Part shown: piece after piece, positions 16,239-53,477 of the stretch | Numbering within the stretch: the stretch's first letter is position 1 | How the letters are laid out: every line of letters begins with the position of its first letter | Origin: an uncultured Holophagaceae bacterium | Lineage (GTDB): Bacteria > Acidobacteriota > Holophagae > Holophagales > Holophagaceae | Reading direction: 5' to 3' | NCBI GenBank assembly: GCA_903863195.1 | Contig: CAIPAY010000182.1 | Location: forward strand, 1-64,000 | Length of the DNA stretch: 64,000 nucleotides | Translations under genes and position numbers: made by a program | The notes under the pieces: model-generated | The model's input: the letters and a program-made list of their open reading frames with translations, nothing else | The model's database searches: none | What the model was told of the DNA's origin: nothing

Positions 16239-16322
16239 AAGGTCGCGACAGGTAACTTGTTCGACCCAAGAGGGCTGCACTCGGTTTAGACACCATGCGC
16301 TATCCTCGTCATGGAGGTTGCC

Positions 16323-16670
16323 GTGCCCCTGGATGCCCCGACCCCCCTCTACACGGGGGAGCGACTGCGAGACCTGATCCTCTGCTACGCGGGGCCCTGG
16401 GCCTTCGTGCCCTACATCCGGAACCGGGAGGACAGCGAGCTGCTCTGGCATGCGCGGCAGGGCGTGATCCTGGCCTTCGCCGAGTGCGTGGTGGGCTTGG
16501 CCATCGTCATCACCGGGCTGTTCCCGATCTTCGGCTGGGTCTTCCTGCGCTTCCTGCTGCCGCTCTGGCTGCTCTGGTGCCTGGGCATGTCCGTGACCAG
16601 CATCCTGCAGGCCTCCAAGGGCAAGCGGCACCGGATCCCGGTCCTGCACCAGTTCGTCGAGTATCTCTGA
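16323..16670 (+). CDS. Small membrane protein (DUF4870/Tic20-like)
   Basis: 115 residues starting at a GTG preceded by GGAGG with 5-base spacing; the ORF-track ATG 12 bases upstream overlaps that ribosome-binding site. Sequence features are a cytoplasmic N-terminus ('YTGERLRDLILCYAGPWAFVPYI'), 'NREDSELLWHARQGVIL', which resembles the His/Gln-containing DUF4870 segment, then two hydrophobic helices ('CVVGLAIVITGLFPIFGW', 'LRFLLPLWLLWCLGMSV') and a basic tail. DUF4870-like proteins are small membrane proteins of unknown role. It is followed by a REP-like palindrome. Confidence 0.7.
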   Translation: MPLDAPTPLYTGERLRDLILCYAGPWAFVPYIRNREDSELLWHARQGVILAFAECVVGLAIVITGLFPIFGWVFLRFLLPLWLLWCLGMSVTSILQASKGKRHRIPVLHQFVEYL

Positions 16671-16733
16671 TCCTTGGCGGGTCGCGGAGCAGGCGACTGA
16701 ATGTCGTCTGCGGAGCGGGGACCCGCCGGGATC
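16669..16733. repeat. REP-like palindromic element, copy 1
   Basis: The 65 bases between the convergent small membrane protein gene and queA form one long imperfect palindrome. The outer arms GGCGGGTC/GACCCGCC pair perfectly and are extended outward by GATCC/GGATC with mismatches. A GGG bulge lies on the 3' side, GCGGAGC faces GCGGAGC (GC pairs around a GGA/GGA internal loop), and a stem AGGCGAC/GTCGTCT closes on the loop TGAAT. The same architecture occurs at 52300-52353. It could also act as a bidirectional terminator, although no T-run follows. Confidence 0.6.
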
Positions 16734-16737
16734 AGAA

Positions 16738-17805
16738 TCAGGTAGGGGTGCTCTGGGCGTTCAGCACCAGCATCGCGTCGCCGTAGCTGAAGAACCGATA
16801 CTGCTGCCGCACGGCCTCGGCGTAGGCCGCCTGGGCCAGGTCCAGTCCCAGCAGCGCGGAAACCAGCACGAACAGGGTGCTCTCCGGCAGGTGGAAGTTG
16901 GTGAGCAGGTGGTCGGCGGTGCGCAGCCGGTAGCCGGGGGTGATGAAGAGGCGGGTGGCGCCCTGGCGCGCCAGGGTGCTGCCATCCCAGGCGCCTTCGA
17001 GGGTGCGCAGGGAGGTGGTGCCCACGCAGAGCACGGGACGGGACCGGTCCCGCAGCACCGGCTCCAGGGCCGCGGCGGTGGCCTCGGGCACCTCGAAGCG
17101 CTCCTCGTGCATGGCGTGGTCCTCGAGGCGGTCCGCGGTCATGGGGCGGAAGGTGCCGAGGCCCACGTGCAGGCGCACGGGCTGCCAGCTGCAGCCCTGC
17201 GCCCGCAGCGTGGCGATGATCTCCGGCGTGAAGTGCAGGCCGGCGGTGGGCGCCGCCACGGCCTCGCCCTCCCGGGCGGCGAAGACGGTCTGGTAGCGGG
17301 TCTCGTCTTCGTCTTCCGCCAGGTGGTCGATGTAGGGCGGCAGGGGCAGGCGGCCGATGCGGTCGATCTCGTCCCAGTCGAGGCCATGGCCGGACTCGAC
17401 CTGGACCACGCGGAGGCCCTCGGGCAGGGTATCCAGCACCGTGATCCGGGCCAGGTCGGCGCCGGTGACGGGATCCACCACGGTGGCCGCGGCTCCCGGC
17501 TTGAGGCGCGCCCCGGGCTTCACCAGGGCCTCGAAGCGGCCCGGACCCAGGCTCCGCAGCAGCAAGGCCTCCCCGGCGCCACCCCCGGCCCGCCGGAGGA
17601 AGAGCCGGGCGTGGCGGACGCGGACATCATTGGGCACGCAGAGGCTGCCGGCGGGGATCAGCCCGGGCAGGTCGCGGATGGTGCGGTGGGACCAGACGCC
17701 GGTGCGCGCATCCACCACCAGGAGGCGGGCGCCGTCCCGGTCCGGCGCGGGGTGCTGCGCGATGAGCTCCGGCGGGAGGTCGAAGTGGAAGTCGGAACGT
17801 CTCAT
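16738..17805 (-). CDS. queA: S-adenosylmethionine:tRNA ribosyltransferase-isomerase
   Basis: 355 residues, the expected length. QueA transfers and isomerises the ribosyl part of SAM onto preQ1 at the tRNA wobble base to give epoxyqueuosine. Conserved segments are visible in order: 'RSDFHFDLPPELIAQHP', 'PNDVRVRHARLF' (NDTRV in most), 'KPGARL', 'GRLPLPPYI', 'RYQTVFA', 'AAPTAGLHFTPE', 'HVGLGTFRPM', 'GTTSLRTLE', 'NFHLPESTLFVLVSA' and 'YRFFSYGDAML'. It starts 10 bases after the msbA stop, so it is probably co-transcribed with msbA. No other queuosine genes are in the window. Confidence 0.95.
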   Translation of the reverse strand: MRRSDFHFDLPPELIAQHPAPDRDGARLLVVDARTGVWSHRTIRDLPGLIPAGSLCVPNDVRVRHARLFLRRAGGGAGEALLLRSLGPGRFEALVKPGARLKPGAAATVVDPVTGADLARITVLDTLPEGLRVVQVESGHGLDWDEIDRIGRLPLPPYIDHLAEDEDETRYQTVFAAREGEAVAAPTAGLHFTPEIIATLRAQGCSWQPVRLHVGLGTFRPMTADRLEDHAMHEERFEVPEATAAALEPVLRDRSRPVLCVGTTSLRTLEGAWDGSTLARQGATRLFITPGYRLRTADHLLTNFHLPESTLFVLVSALLGLDLAQAAYAEAVRQQYRFFSYGDAMLVLNAQSTPT

Positions 17806-35433: not shown

Positions 35434-38243
<2,810 letters not shown>

Positions 38244-48871: not shown

Positions 48872-51800
48872 ATGCCCACGTCTGCCGTACCCGAGCTCGA
48901 GTCCCTCCCCCGGGAGGGCTATGTCCCGAAGCACAAGGTTCGCTTCGTCACTGCCGCCAGCCTCTTCGACGGCCATGACGCCAGCATCAACATCATGCGG
49001 CGCATCCTGCAGGCCACCGGCTGCGAGGTGATCCACCTGGGCCACAACCGCGCCGTGCAGGACATCGTCGACACCGCACTGCAGGAAGACGCCCAGGGCA
49101 TCGCCATCTCCAGCTACCAGGGCGGCCATGTCGAATACTTCAAGTACATGGTGGACCTGCTGCGGGAGAAGGGCGCCGGTCACATCCAGATCTTCGGCGG
49201 CGGCGGCGGTGTCATCTCCCCCGAGGAGATCGAGGAGCTGCAGGCCTACGGGGTCGCGCGGATCTACAGCCCTGAGGACGGCCGCCACATGGGCCTCCAG
49301 GGCATGATCGACGACATGGTGCAGCGCTGCGACGTGGATCCCCGGACCACGCCGGAGTTCCACACCCTGGCGCGGCGGATCACCCAGATTGAGCTCGGCG
49401 AGGCCGGGGCCATACCCATGAGCCAGCCCACGCGGACCATTCCGGTCCTCGGCATCACCGGCACGGGCGGCGCCGGCAAGTCCTCGCTCATCGACGAGCT
49501 GCTGCGCCGCTTCCTGGTGGACTTCCCGGACAAGCAGGTGGCCGTGCTGAGCGTGGACCCCTCCAAGCGCAAGACCGGCGGCGCCCTGCTGGGTGACCGC
49601 ATCCGCATGAACACCCTCTACCATCCGGAGCTGCGGGACCGCGTGTTCATGCGCAGCCTCGCCACCCGCAGCGCCGCCCACCGGGCGACCAGCGAGGCCC
49701 TGGCCGCCAGCATCCTGGCCGCCAAGGACGCAGGCCACGACCTGGTGATCGTGGAGACCGCAGGCATCGGCCAGAGCGACAGCGAGATCGCGGACCTGGT
49801 GGATTTGGCCATGTATGTGATGACGCCGGAGTACGGCGCCGCCAGCCAGCTCGAGAAGATCGACATGCTGGACTTCGCCGATGTGGTGGTGCTGAACAAG
49901 GCCGACAAGCGCGGCGCCGAGGATGCCCTGCGCGACGTGCGCAAGCAGTACCAGCGCGCCCACAAGCGCTTCTCCGAGTCCGCCGACGAGATGCCCGTCT
50001 ATGCCACCTGCGCCAGCCAGTTCAACGACCCCGCCACCAACTGGCTCTTCGTGAACCTGGTGAAGGCCATCGCCACAAAGACCGGCGTGGACTGGGTGCC
50101 CCGGCTCGAGGCCGCCCCCGGGAACCCCCGCCGCTCGGCCATCATCCCCCCGGAGCGGGTGCGCTACCTGGCCGAGATCGCCGACACGGTGCAGGGCTAC
50201 AAGGCCTGGGCCCGCCGGCAGGCGGAGACCGCAGAGCTGTGCCACGCCCTCTGGGCCAGCCTCCGCGCCCTGGGCGACAAGGTGCCGGCCGCCGGCGCCT
50301 TCTATGACGCCATCCACCTCCTGGAGCCCGGCGAGGGCGACCAGGGTGCCGCCGTGCTCCTGCTCCGTCAGCGCTACCAGGAGCACCTGGGCGAGCTGCA
50401 CGGCGAGAGCCGCCGCCTCATCCACGACTGGGCCGAGGTCAAGCGCAGCTACACTGAGCCCGAGAACGTCTACGTGGTGCGCGGCCGCGAGATCCGCACC
50501 GCGAACTACACGGCGTCCCTCAGCGGCTCCATGATCCCCAAAGTGGCCCTGCCGTCCTACTCAGGCTGGGGCGAGCTGCTGCGCTGGCAGCTGCTGGAGA
50601 ACCTGCCCGGCTTCTTCCCCTACGTGGCGGGAGTCTTCGAGTACAAGCGCGTGGGTGAGGATCCGACCCGCATGTTCGCCGGCGAGGGCACGCCCGAGCG
50701 GACCAACAAGCGGTTCCACTTCGTGAGCAAGGGCCAGCCCGCCGTGCGGCTCAGCACCGCCTTCGACAGCGTGACCCTCTACGGTGAGGATCCCCACGTC
50801 CGCCCCGACATCTACGGCAAGATCGGCAACAGTGGCGTCTCGGTGTGCACCGTGGACGACGCCAAGAAGCTCTACTCGGGCTTCGATCTGCTCTGCCCCA
50901 CCTCCAGCGTCAGCATGACCGTGAACGGCCCCGCGCCCACGGTGCTGGCCTTCTTCCTGAATGCCGCCATCGACCAGCGCGCCGAGGTCTGGCTGGCCGA
51001 GCACGGCCAGCTGGCCGCCGCCCAGGCCAAGATCGACACCAAGTACGCTGCCAAGGGCATGATCCGGCCCTGCTACGGGGAGACCCTTCCCGAGGGCAAC
51101 CACGGCCTCGGCCTCGCCCTGCTGGGTGCCACCGCCGACGAGGTGCTGCCGCCGGAGGTCTACGCCCGGCTGCGCATGGAGGCCCTCCAGACCGTGCGCG
51201 GCACGGTGCAGGCCGACATCCTCAAGGAGGACCAGGCCCAGAACACCTGCATCTTCAGCACGGAGTTCAGCCTCAAGGTCATGGGCGACATCCAGTCCAC
51301 CTTCATCGAGGAGAAGATCCGCAACTTCTACTCGGTGAGCATCAGCGGCTACCACATCGCTGAGGCTGGCGCGAACCCGATCAGCCAGCTGGCCTTCACG
51401 CTGGCCAACGGCTTCACTTTCGTCGAGTACTACCTCTCCCGGGGCATGCACATCGACGACTTTGCGCCGAACCTCAGCTTCTTTTTCAGCAACGGCCTCG
51501 ACGCGGAATACAGTGTCATCGGCCGCGTGGCGCGCCGCATCTGGGCCATCGCCATGAAGGAGAAGTATGGCGCCAACGACCGCAGCCAGAAGCTGAAGTA
51601 CCACATCCAGACCAGCGGCCGCTCCCTGCACGCCCAGGAGATCGACTTCAACGACATCCGCACGACCCTGCAGGCCCTCTACGCCATCTACGACAACTGC
51701 AATAGCCTGCACACCAACGCCTACGATGAGGCCATCACCACGCCCACCGAAGAGAGCGTGCGCCGGGCCATCGCCATCCAGCTCATCATCAACCGCGAGC

Positions 51801-52294
51801 TGGGCCAGGCGAAGAACGAGAACCCGCAGCAGGGCGCCTTCCTCATCGAGCAGCTCACGGAGCTGGTGGAGGAGGCCGTGCTGGCCGAGTTCCGCCGCAT
51901 CAGCGACCGCGGCGGCGTGCTGGGCGCCATGGAGACCATGTATCAGCGCGGCAAGATCCAGGAAGAGTCCATGCACTACGAGCACCTCAAGCACAGCGGG
52001 GAGCTACCCATCGTCGGCGTGAACACCTTCCTGAATCCCCAGCCCCCGGAGCTGGGCGCGCCGGAGCTGATCCGCAGCACCGAGGCAGAGAAGCAGCAGC
52101 AGATCGACAACCTGGCAGCCTTCCACGCCCGGAACGCCGACGTGGCCCCCGCCGCCCTCCTGCGCCTCAAGGAAGTGGCCCGCGCCGGCGGCAACCTCTT
52201 CGAGGAGCTGCTGAACGCCGCCAAGGTCTGCAGCCTCGGCCAGATCAGCCAGGCCCTCTACGAAGTGGGCGGGCAGTACCGTAGGAATATGTAA
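48872..52294 (+). CDS. icmF: Fused isobutyryl-CoA mutase IcmF (B12 mutase with internal G-protein chaperone)
   Basis: 1140 residues, the IcmF layout. B12-binding domain ('[33 protein letters not shown]', 'IFGGGGGVI'); MeaI/ArgK-type GTPase ('[21 protein letters not shown]', '[21 protein letters not shown]', '[17 protein letters not shown]', 'NKADKRG'); mutase TIM barrel ('[38 protein letters not shown]', '[47 protein letters not shown]'). Where methylmalonyl-CoA mutase has Arg in 'KEFMVRNTY', this has Gln ('KEDQAQNTC', Q790), arguing against methylmalonyl-CoA as substrate. It isomerises isobutyryl-CoA and n-butyryl-CoA using adenosylcobalamin. Start has GGGGGG. Confidence 0.95.
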
Positions 52295-52299
52295 GCGAC

Positions 52300-52353
52300 C
52301 GTCGGGTGGCGAAGTGGAGGACTTGATGTCCTCCACGAAGCCGGGACCCGACG
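52300..52353. repeat. REP-like palindromic element, copy 2 (best preserved)
   Basis: CGTCGGGT/ACCCGACG outer stem, GGG bulge on the 3' side, GGC/GCC stem, a symmetric GAA facing GAA internal loop, GTGGAGGAC/GTCCTCCAC inner stem and loop TTGAT. Position is immediately after the icmF stop. It could act as a terminator, but the shared architecture with 16669-16733 suggests a dispersed element. Confidence 0.65.
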
Positions 52354-52369
52354 CGGAGCTTATGCCACG
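52327..52369. repeat. 43-bp near-identical direct repeat, unit A (partner at 52546-52588)
   Basis: TGTCCTCCACGAAGCC through GAGCTTATGCCACG recurs 219 bases downstream with 4 mismatches in 43 positions. It overlaps the right half of copy 2, so a full second element may have been truncated or rearranged. Confidence 0.75.
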
Positions 52370-52390
52370 AGACCGTCGGGGCGAAGCCCA

Positions 52391-52441
52391 GGCGGGTGGC
52401 TCGGGACGCTGCTGTGCAGCGTTCCAAGCCGGGCACCCGCC
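52391..52441. repeat. REP-like palindromic element, copy 3 (diverged)
   Basis: GGCGGGT/ACCCGCC outer stem, a GGGC bulge on the 3' side, GGCT/AGCC stem, single C/A mismatch, GGGACGCTG/CAGCGTTCC inner stem with one G-T pair and loop CTGTG. Same plan as copy 2 but the GRA/GRA internal loop is replaced by one mismatch. Confidence 0.5.
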
Positions 52442-52485
52442 GGGTTGAGCATCATCTTCGGTGCCGCCTGGGCTCTCCGCCGGAC

Positions 52486-52508
52486 GCCCAGGACATCAAG
52501 TCCTGGGC
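52486..52508. repeat. Palindrome related to the REP-like family, copy 4 (opposite orientation)
   Basis: GCCCAGGAC-ATCAA-GTCCTGGGC is a perfect 9-bp inverted repeat. Its centre read on the minus strand is GGACTTGATGTCC, identical to the centre of copy 2. The outer arms are not conserved. Confidence 0.5.
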
Positions 52509-52545
52509 TCCTGCGCGCCCTGCGGGCTTGCAGCGTCGGAGCCTC

Positions 52546-52588
52546 TGTCCTCCACGAAGCCGAAACCCGACGAGGAGCTTGTGCCACG
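52546..52588. repeat. 43-bp direct repeat, unit B
   Basis: Second copy of the sequence at 52327-52369 (4 mismatches). Here the left half of the palindrome is missing, so no hairpin forms. It ends 49 bases before the lytic transglycosylase start; the 52295-52637 interval has no gene. Confidence 0.75.
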
Positions 52589-52637
52589 CACGCCGCTCGG
52601 TGAACCTCAGCCCCCCAGGGCGTATCATGTACCCCGG

Positions 52638-53477
52638 ATGCTGCGCTCCGCCCTGATCCTTCCCCTGGCCGCCCTGGCGCTCTTCGCCGGGTCGCCGAGG
52701 TCTGGCGCGAAGTCCGGTGCCACGTACCTCTATACCTACTACGACAAGCAGGGCGGGCTGATCATCAACAACCTGCCGCCCAGCTACATGAAGGGCCAGG
52801 GGCTGGTGCTCAAGAGTGTCGGCGTGGGCAAGGTCCGCCTCGCGGTGACCCCCGCCGAGATGGCCAAGGCGCTCCGAAGCCCTGAGCTCATCGCCCTGGT
52901 GGACGAGATCACTTCGGTGGAAGGCGTGGACACCCACCTGGCCCGGGCCATCATCCAGGCCGAGAGCGCCTTCAACTACCGGGCCCGCTCCCGGGCCGGG
53001 GCCCTGGGCCTCATGCAGCTCATGCCCTCCACGGCGCAGCGCTTCGGGGTCCTGGATCCCTTCGACCCCCGCCAGAACATCAACGGCGGTGTGAAGTACC
53101 TGAAGTGGCTGCATACCTACTACGAGGGCGACCTCACCAAGGTGGTGGCGGCCTACAACGCCGGCGAGGGCGCCGTGAATCGGCACAAGGGCATCCCGCC
53201 CTTCCGCGAGACCCAGGCCTATGTGCCCCGGGTGCTGGACCTCTACCGCCGCAAGGCTGTGCAGCCGGACCCCAAGCTGGCGGGCAGCATGGCCCTGCTG
53301 CAGAAGGGCCGGGGCGGCTTCAAGGTGGATGACGAGAAGACCGTGCCGGAGCCGACCCCCCAGCAGCAGGCCGCCACCCGGATCTACCAGTGGACGGACG
53401 CCAACGGCCGCATCCAGATCAGCGACCAGCCCCCGCCCAAGGGCACGCCCGGCGTGAAGCCCTACGGCGCGCCCTGA
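52638..53477 (+). CDS. Lytic transglycosylase (SLT domain) with flanking DUF4124-like segments
   Basis: 279 residues from the ATG at 52638; the ORF-track leader is read through the repeat region. Signal peptide (MLRSALILPLAALALFAG), then a DUF4124-like piece ('YLYTYYDKQGGLIINNLPP'), the SLT catalytic domain ('LARAIIQAESAFNYRARSRAGALGLMQLMPSTAQRFGV', catalytic Glu E109; 'NINGGVKYLKWLHTYYEGDLTKVVAAYNAGEGAVNRHKGIPPF') and a second DUF4124-like end ('RIYQWTDANGRIQISDQPP'). It cleaves peptidoglycan glycan strands in the periplasm. The ribosome-binding site is weak, which may reflect low expression or an uncertain start. Confidence 0.92.
   Translation: MLRSALILPLAALALFAGSPRSGAKSGATYLYTYYDKQGGLIINNLPPSYMKGQGLVLKSVGVGKVRLAVTPAEMAKALRSPELIALVDEITSVEGVDTHLARAIIQAESAFNYRARSRAGALGLMQLMPSTAQRFGVLDPFDPRQNINGGVKYLKWLHTYYEGDLTKVVAAYNAGEGAVNRHKGIPPFRETQAYVPRVLDLYRRKAVQPDPKLAGSMALLQKGRGGFKVDDEKTVPEPTPQQQAATRIYQWTDANGRIQISDQPPPKGTPGVKPYGAP

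Follow-up and report, generated by a model that had tools for sequence, protein, structure and literature searches.

The interval that follows icmF (52295-52637) in a 64,000-nt stretch of DNA from an uncultured Holophagaceae bacterium (hereafter, the window) is a mosaic of three families of palindromic elements, designated A, B and C. In the reading that we favor, with a probability of around 0.55 and judged from sequence, this mosaic is specific to the Geothrix group, and its type-A elements would act as REP-like hairpins of the mRNA 3' end into which the stop codon of the host gene is paired. An earlier note on this DNA had described the interval as a cluster of REP-like palindromes, mobile or amplified, with a possible link to a REP-associated tyrosine transposase (RAYT). 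Its REP-like and mobile or amplified character is supported, while the RAYT link is not. Beyond that first reading, the main element is anchored on a native stop codon, which is base-paired within it, and the three families are nested in one another.

The gene icmF (48872-52294, forward strand), which according to Pfam encodes a fused acyl-CoA mutase (B12-binding, MeaB-like GTPase and MM_CoA_mutase), has its native stop clasped by element A1 (type A, 78 nt, 52292-52369, forward strand; 103.3 bits with R1, the covariance model of type A). The 5' start of A1 is the icmF stop TAA itself (52292-52294), and the array begins there rather than at 52295, where the earlier note had placed its start; the interval otherwise reads as described there. 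A basal helix pairs 52292-52296 with 52358-52362, and the remaining parts are an outer helix with an RGG bulge, an inner hairpin with the loop TTGAT and a tail, TGCCACG. Behind A1 there is a second type-A unit, whose 5' arm (GACCGTCGGGGCGAA, 52371-52385, forward strand), read directly from the sequence and with intact counterparts in G023 and G060, is interrupted by B and C and overlaps the start of element B (type B, 75 nt, 52380-52454, forward strand; 95.5 bits with R2, the model of type B). Element C (type C, two hairpins, forward strand, about 52474-52546, with approximate ends) is nested in this second unit, occupying the position of its loop, and the same insertion is found in G060 and G023. 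This second unit closes with its 3' arm and tail (52546-52588, forward strand), which fall within a weak R1 match at 52512-52588; as a whole it extends from 52371 to 52588, its center filled by B and C. The array A-A-B-C at 52292-52588 is a BIME-like mosaic, other combinations of which appear in congeners, and it is followed by a gene for a transglycosylase SLT domain protein (Pfam; 52638-53477, forward strand).

The three palindromes listed in the earlier note are real, and correspond to the A1 hairpin (52300-52353), the B hairpin (52391-52441) and the first hairpin of C (52486-52508). None of 200 shuffles folds as well as A1, B or C (z -6.0, -5.3 and -4.5, respectively). The 43-bp direct repeat also noticed there (52327-52369 and 52546-52588) has 91% identity between its two units, which are the 3' arms of two type-A copies, and the GGG bulge is present in both A and B and conserved family-wide as RGG. 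A repeat search found in addition a 15-nt perfect inverted repeat in the interval (AGGACTTGATGTCCT/AGGACATCAAGTCCT), and GGACTTGATGTCC has two exact occurrences in the window, one per strand, both within the interval. Elsewhere in the window, GCCGCCAAGAAGCCG recurs four times (36508-36786), probably as a repeat rich in lysine and alanine within a protein that resembles histone H1.

In the alignment, type A follows the pattern stop codon, SCGACCGCCGGGTGGCG, hairpin, AAGCCGGGACCCGGCGAGGAGS, complement of the stop and TGCCAC. The aligned termini read TRASC...GSTYATGCCAC, 98% of the cells are paired, and over the whole structure there are 48 cells in which both sides have changed, compared with 14.8 in shuffles. 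Type B (GGCGAAGCCCAG-CGGGTGGC-hairpin-GAGCCGGGCACCCG-CGGGCTGAGCATCA) has the same frame as type A with a different tail (TGAGCATCA), and R1 and R2 score each other's copies, which indicates that both types share a structural frame. The third family, type C, is matched in 13 of the 47 genomes of the genus. In G060 and G023 it lies precisely within the loop of an A hairpin that is intact in all other respects, and G006 and G016 carry it in the loop of another hairpin.

Several arrangements of these elements were observed at individual loci. After icmF of G018 (L043, 1045-1574), there are at least six tandem copies of a 65-bp unit, which combines the 3' half of one B element with a spacer. The B copies of L343, L344, L350, L359 and L339 reach into the 3' coding portion of a gene whose product ends in ...ESGSWMAML and whose TGA stop falls within the B stem, and in some genomes a permease-like gene has had its 3' coding portion duplicated together with the B element behind it (L338, L047, L048 and L349). 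A subclass of type A (L129, L146, L149, L154 and L163) is preceded by CTTGCCA(C/T)G and has TGG, TGC or TGT, and no stop, at its start; its basal pairing is kept within a larger palindrome ending in GATTCGCAAG.

The repeat mosaic is genus-specific and is found almost only in Geothrix-type bacteria. With blastn, the interval has significant matches in 31 searched genomes (that of the window and congeners) and none in the searched genomes outside the genus; within its own genome, the other copies are few and diverged, and give only weak matches. Covariance models reach further: across 47 genus genomes (Geothrix/Holophagaceae), R1 has matches in 45 (0-29 per genome) and R2 also in 45 (0-24 per genome), these counts being lower bounds, and A- and B-type matches number in the hundreds over the genus as a whole. 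The genome of the window itself holds at least six A-type and at least five B-type matches, so that the motif is not absent from the rest of the genome, the condition by which the earlier note would have been refuted. Among 149 Acidobacteriota genomes, R1 matched 10 members of the genus and one weak outsider. Beyond the family, genome contigs were searched with a short pattern that yields many chance matches, and 69 of the loci listed were scored with R1; among these there are three strong matches (two in Holophagaceae and one in Acidobacteria with the same HU context) and a weak one in Roseibium, which is probably due to chance. Being palindromic, dispersed, extragenic and multi-copy, with tandem and nested arrangements at many loci, the elements are REP-like and amplified in the broad sense, at a modest copy number.

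Out of 117 unique aligned type-A copies, 79 (about 70%) start with TAA, TGA or TAG, at a distance of 0 nt from the stop, and 66 of these 79 close open frames of at least 100 codons. The stop-anchored copies represent 25 C-terminal groups, of which three are doubtful, with short frames (22-25 gene groups), and they have a single polarity, with the gene stop at the 5' end of the element. The basal helix, of 5 bp, joins the stop codon and the bases next to it with the 3' end of the element, most often as TAACC/GGTTA (27 copies), TGACC/GGTCA (19) and TAAGC/GCTTA (15), followed by TAGCC/GGCTA (5), TGAGC/GCTCA (3) and a few others. Within orthologous groups the stop varies and its partner follows, as at icmF, where TAAGC/GCTTA, TGAGC/GCTCA and TAGCC/GGCTA are all found. 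Over 40 distinct group-by-variant combinations, 114 of the 120 variable pairs are Watson-Crick, six are G.U and none is A.C, while permutations give a mean of 72 and a maximum of 90. When all pairs are considered, G.U versus A.C counts are 37 versus 13 in stop-anchored copies and 26 versus 18 in non-stop copies, a small excess calculated without phylogenetic correction and to which a coding-strand C-to-T bias could add. The remaining ~30% of the examined A copies lie off stop codons and still keep the basal pairing.

A second A-like element in the window (16667-16742, forward strand; 52.1 bits with R1 and 47.2 with R2), delimited from the sequence and the ORFs, is more diverged than A1 and has the same stop-codon clasp. 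It embeds the TGA stop (16668-16670) of the ORF 16311-16670 in a basal helix CTGATCC/GGATCAG, and a convergent ORF (16738-17805) lies on its other side.

The stop is native to the host gene at the two loci where element-free orthologues were compared, icmF and HU, because these orthologues keep the same C-terminus and stop. The C-terminal region of icmF is present in 44 of the 47 genomes, and in the ends read directly the stop position is conserved with or without an element behind it; several congeners have no element at icmF or HU. In element-free genomes, HU ends in ATG TAA, followed by a spacer of ~20 nt and a terminator-like hairpin (AAGGCCGCC..GGCGGCCTT), and in element-bearing genomes this stop and this hairpin are both present, with a type-A element lying between them. 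For these two loci, the possibility that the element supplies the stop codon has therefore been rejected. Since it sits between the stop and the terminator-like hairpin, the type-A element of HU would be transcribed, and it is probably not the terminator. In several genomes, including that of the window, the last 30-odd bases of HU (AKTAKGLKDQM-stop) and the type-A element are also found a second time, as a fragment of their own some hundreds of bases downstream of the intact HU gene (L117, G000:C137:6133-8010, element at 901-978; similarly L087, L104, L105, L114, L118 and L137), a partial duplication of the gene end together with the element.

According to the reading that we favor, type A, set flush on the native stop of its host gene, would form the first structure of the 3' untranslated region of the mRNA. 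The hairpin would work in RNA. Its most likely roles would be to protect the 3' end against exonucleases and to slow or shape translation termination, as has been described for E. coli REPs at less than 16 nt from a stop (cited in PMC12306157). The stems would be kept by selection together with template switching, one arm serving to repair the other as the DNA is replicated. An RNA function is favored because the copies lie on real stop codons, with a single polarity, and because the basal helix contains G.U pairs and no A.C. The copies off stop codons that keep the basal pairing, the low copy number and the congeners with no element at icmF or HU weigh against it. The dispersal, the position on stops, the pairing with its covariation, the nesting and the template-switch signature are seen in the sequences themselves; that the elements are transcribed, that they affect termination or mRNA stability, and how they spread are what we infer.

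The most serious competitor, which we consider somewhat less probable, is that these are selfish or inert REP/BIME-like DNA palindromes with no role in RNA, with stems maintained by template switching alone and a location at stops reflecting an insertion-site preference combined with the avoidance of gene disruption. It has been reported that template switching can yield, in one event, multi-base compensatory changes that perfect a stem (PMC8794818), and clustered changes between near-identical type-A copies carry this signature. In ten A copies, the inner internal loop has been converted into perfect pairing, and comparison with their nearest partners reveals there 2-3 clustered substitutions, exactly complementary to the other arm (pairs L088/L100, L084/L102, L133/L085 and L092/L089). 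The clearest case is L088 versus L100, in which only three adjacent bases differ over the whole element. As template switching explains such changes of the inner stem with no need for RNA selection, covariation alone is no proof of RNA function. The nesting of C in hairpin loops, the tandem copies and the pairing kept by non-stop copies also suit inert palindromes, as does the over-representation of TAA among target stops: most members use it in 10 of the 25 A-bearing groups, against 9% of G063 genes. Several A-host genes end in a methionine codon (ATG TAA), among them icmF, HU and at least two others, and both this ending and the TAA enrichment may point to a target preference. A target-site duplication was also considered and is unsupported, the paired ends being inverted and not direct. 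Against inert insertion, however, a preference for TRA would also strike many intergenic TRA sites that are not stops, whereas nearly all A copies starting with TRA are on real stops; the basal helix has G.U without A.C; and no dedicated transposase was found.

A more ambitious proposal, which goes further than the 3'-end hairpin and which we hold only tentatively, is that type A could be a dedicated RNA device. In this case, the 3' hairpin would lock the native stop in a helix that the terminating ribosome must open, controlling termination, ribosome release or mRNA half-life of around two dozen genes, and it would have spread by a stop-targeting mechanism.

Far less probable is that type A represents intrinsic terminators that start at the stop by chance. 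The elements are strong GC-rich hairpins directly after genes, which would suit terminators, but the copies read have no U-tract behind type A, and at HU a separate terminator-like hairpin follows the element. In addition, the ordinary hairpins of the genome generally begin further downstream, and a general habit of hairpins starting at stops in the genus has been rejected on G063, where a downstream complement is rarer for arms of 6-9 nt that begin at the stop than for those that begin 7-18 nt later (539 genes from 800 kb, with rough gene prediction). Least credible of all is the mobilization by RAYT suggested in the earlier note, since, although bulged palindromes, mosaic arrays and extragenic position resemble REPs/BIMEs, the elements lack the GTAG tag, Y1 transposases (Y1_Tnp/RAYT) have no match in the genome of the window (93% complete), and they are found in only 5 of 41 congeners (5-7 copies in two of those), compared with repeats in 45 of 47.

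Type A may serve as a natural test case, both for the effect of stop-adjacent extragenic palindromes on mRNA and for the origin of compensatory stem changes, as in many orthologous pairs one member has the element and the other lacks it, and the TAA, TGA and TAG versions all keep the pairing. The template-switch-like repair of stems in near-identical copies is also a warning against taking covariation alone as proof of RNA function. The same one-event, multi-base changes perfecting a stem are seen in RNA hairpins maintained by template switching (PMC8794818); that work reconstructs the histories of RNA genes, whereas here the pattern appears in a dispersed bacterial repeat.

A search of Rfam 15 returned a single match to the interval (E 4.8, far below the gathering score), and a partial literature search, covering Geothrix repeats and stop-codon-clasping repeats, gave no matches and no description of a repeat whose helix holds a variable native stop with covariation. 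By its sequence, the mosaic is best described as a genus-specific variant of the REPs, one member of which, type A, has an unusual stop-codon clasp. Like REPs/BIMEs (PMC3733652), the elements are short, dispersed extragenic palindromes near genes, single, in tandem or in nested mosaics, but they measure about 75-78 nt instead of 20-40, and have no conserved GTAG or CGTC tag and no RAYT. CGTC REPs have no dedicated transposase, and show a terminal CGTC tag, a stem of 8-9 bp, a loop of 4-5 nt and a CCA tail (PMC3733652); here, CGTC is not terminal, the family consensus at that place is CGCC, the stems are longer, and the TGCCA tail of type A bears only a loose likeness to the CCA tail. The ends of GTAG REPs often supply a TAG stop (PMC3733652). 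In contrast, type A has no terminal unpaired GTAG, and its stop is native, of all three kinds, with the other end of the element changing along with it. A further parallel is offered by REPs of E. coli that lie within 15 nt of a stop, which can down-regulate translation (as cited in PMC12306157): both are strong hairpins immediately downstream of a stop, but in type A the distance is zero and the stop itself lies inside the helix.
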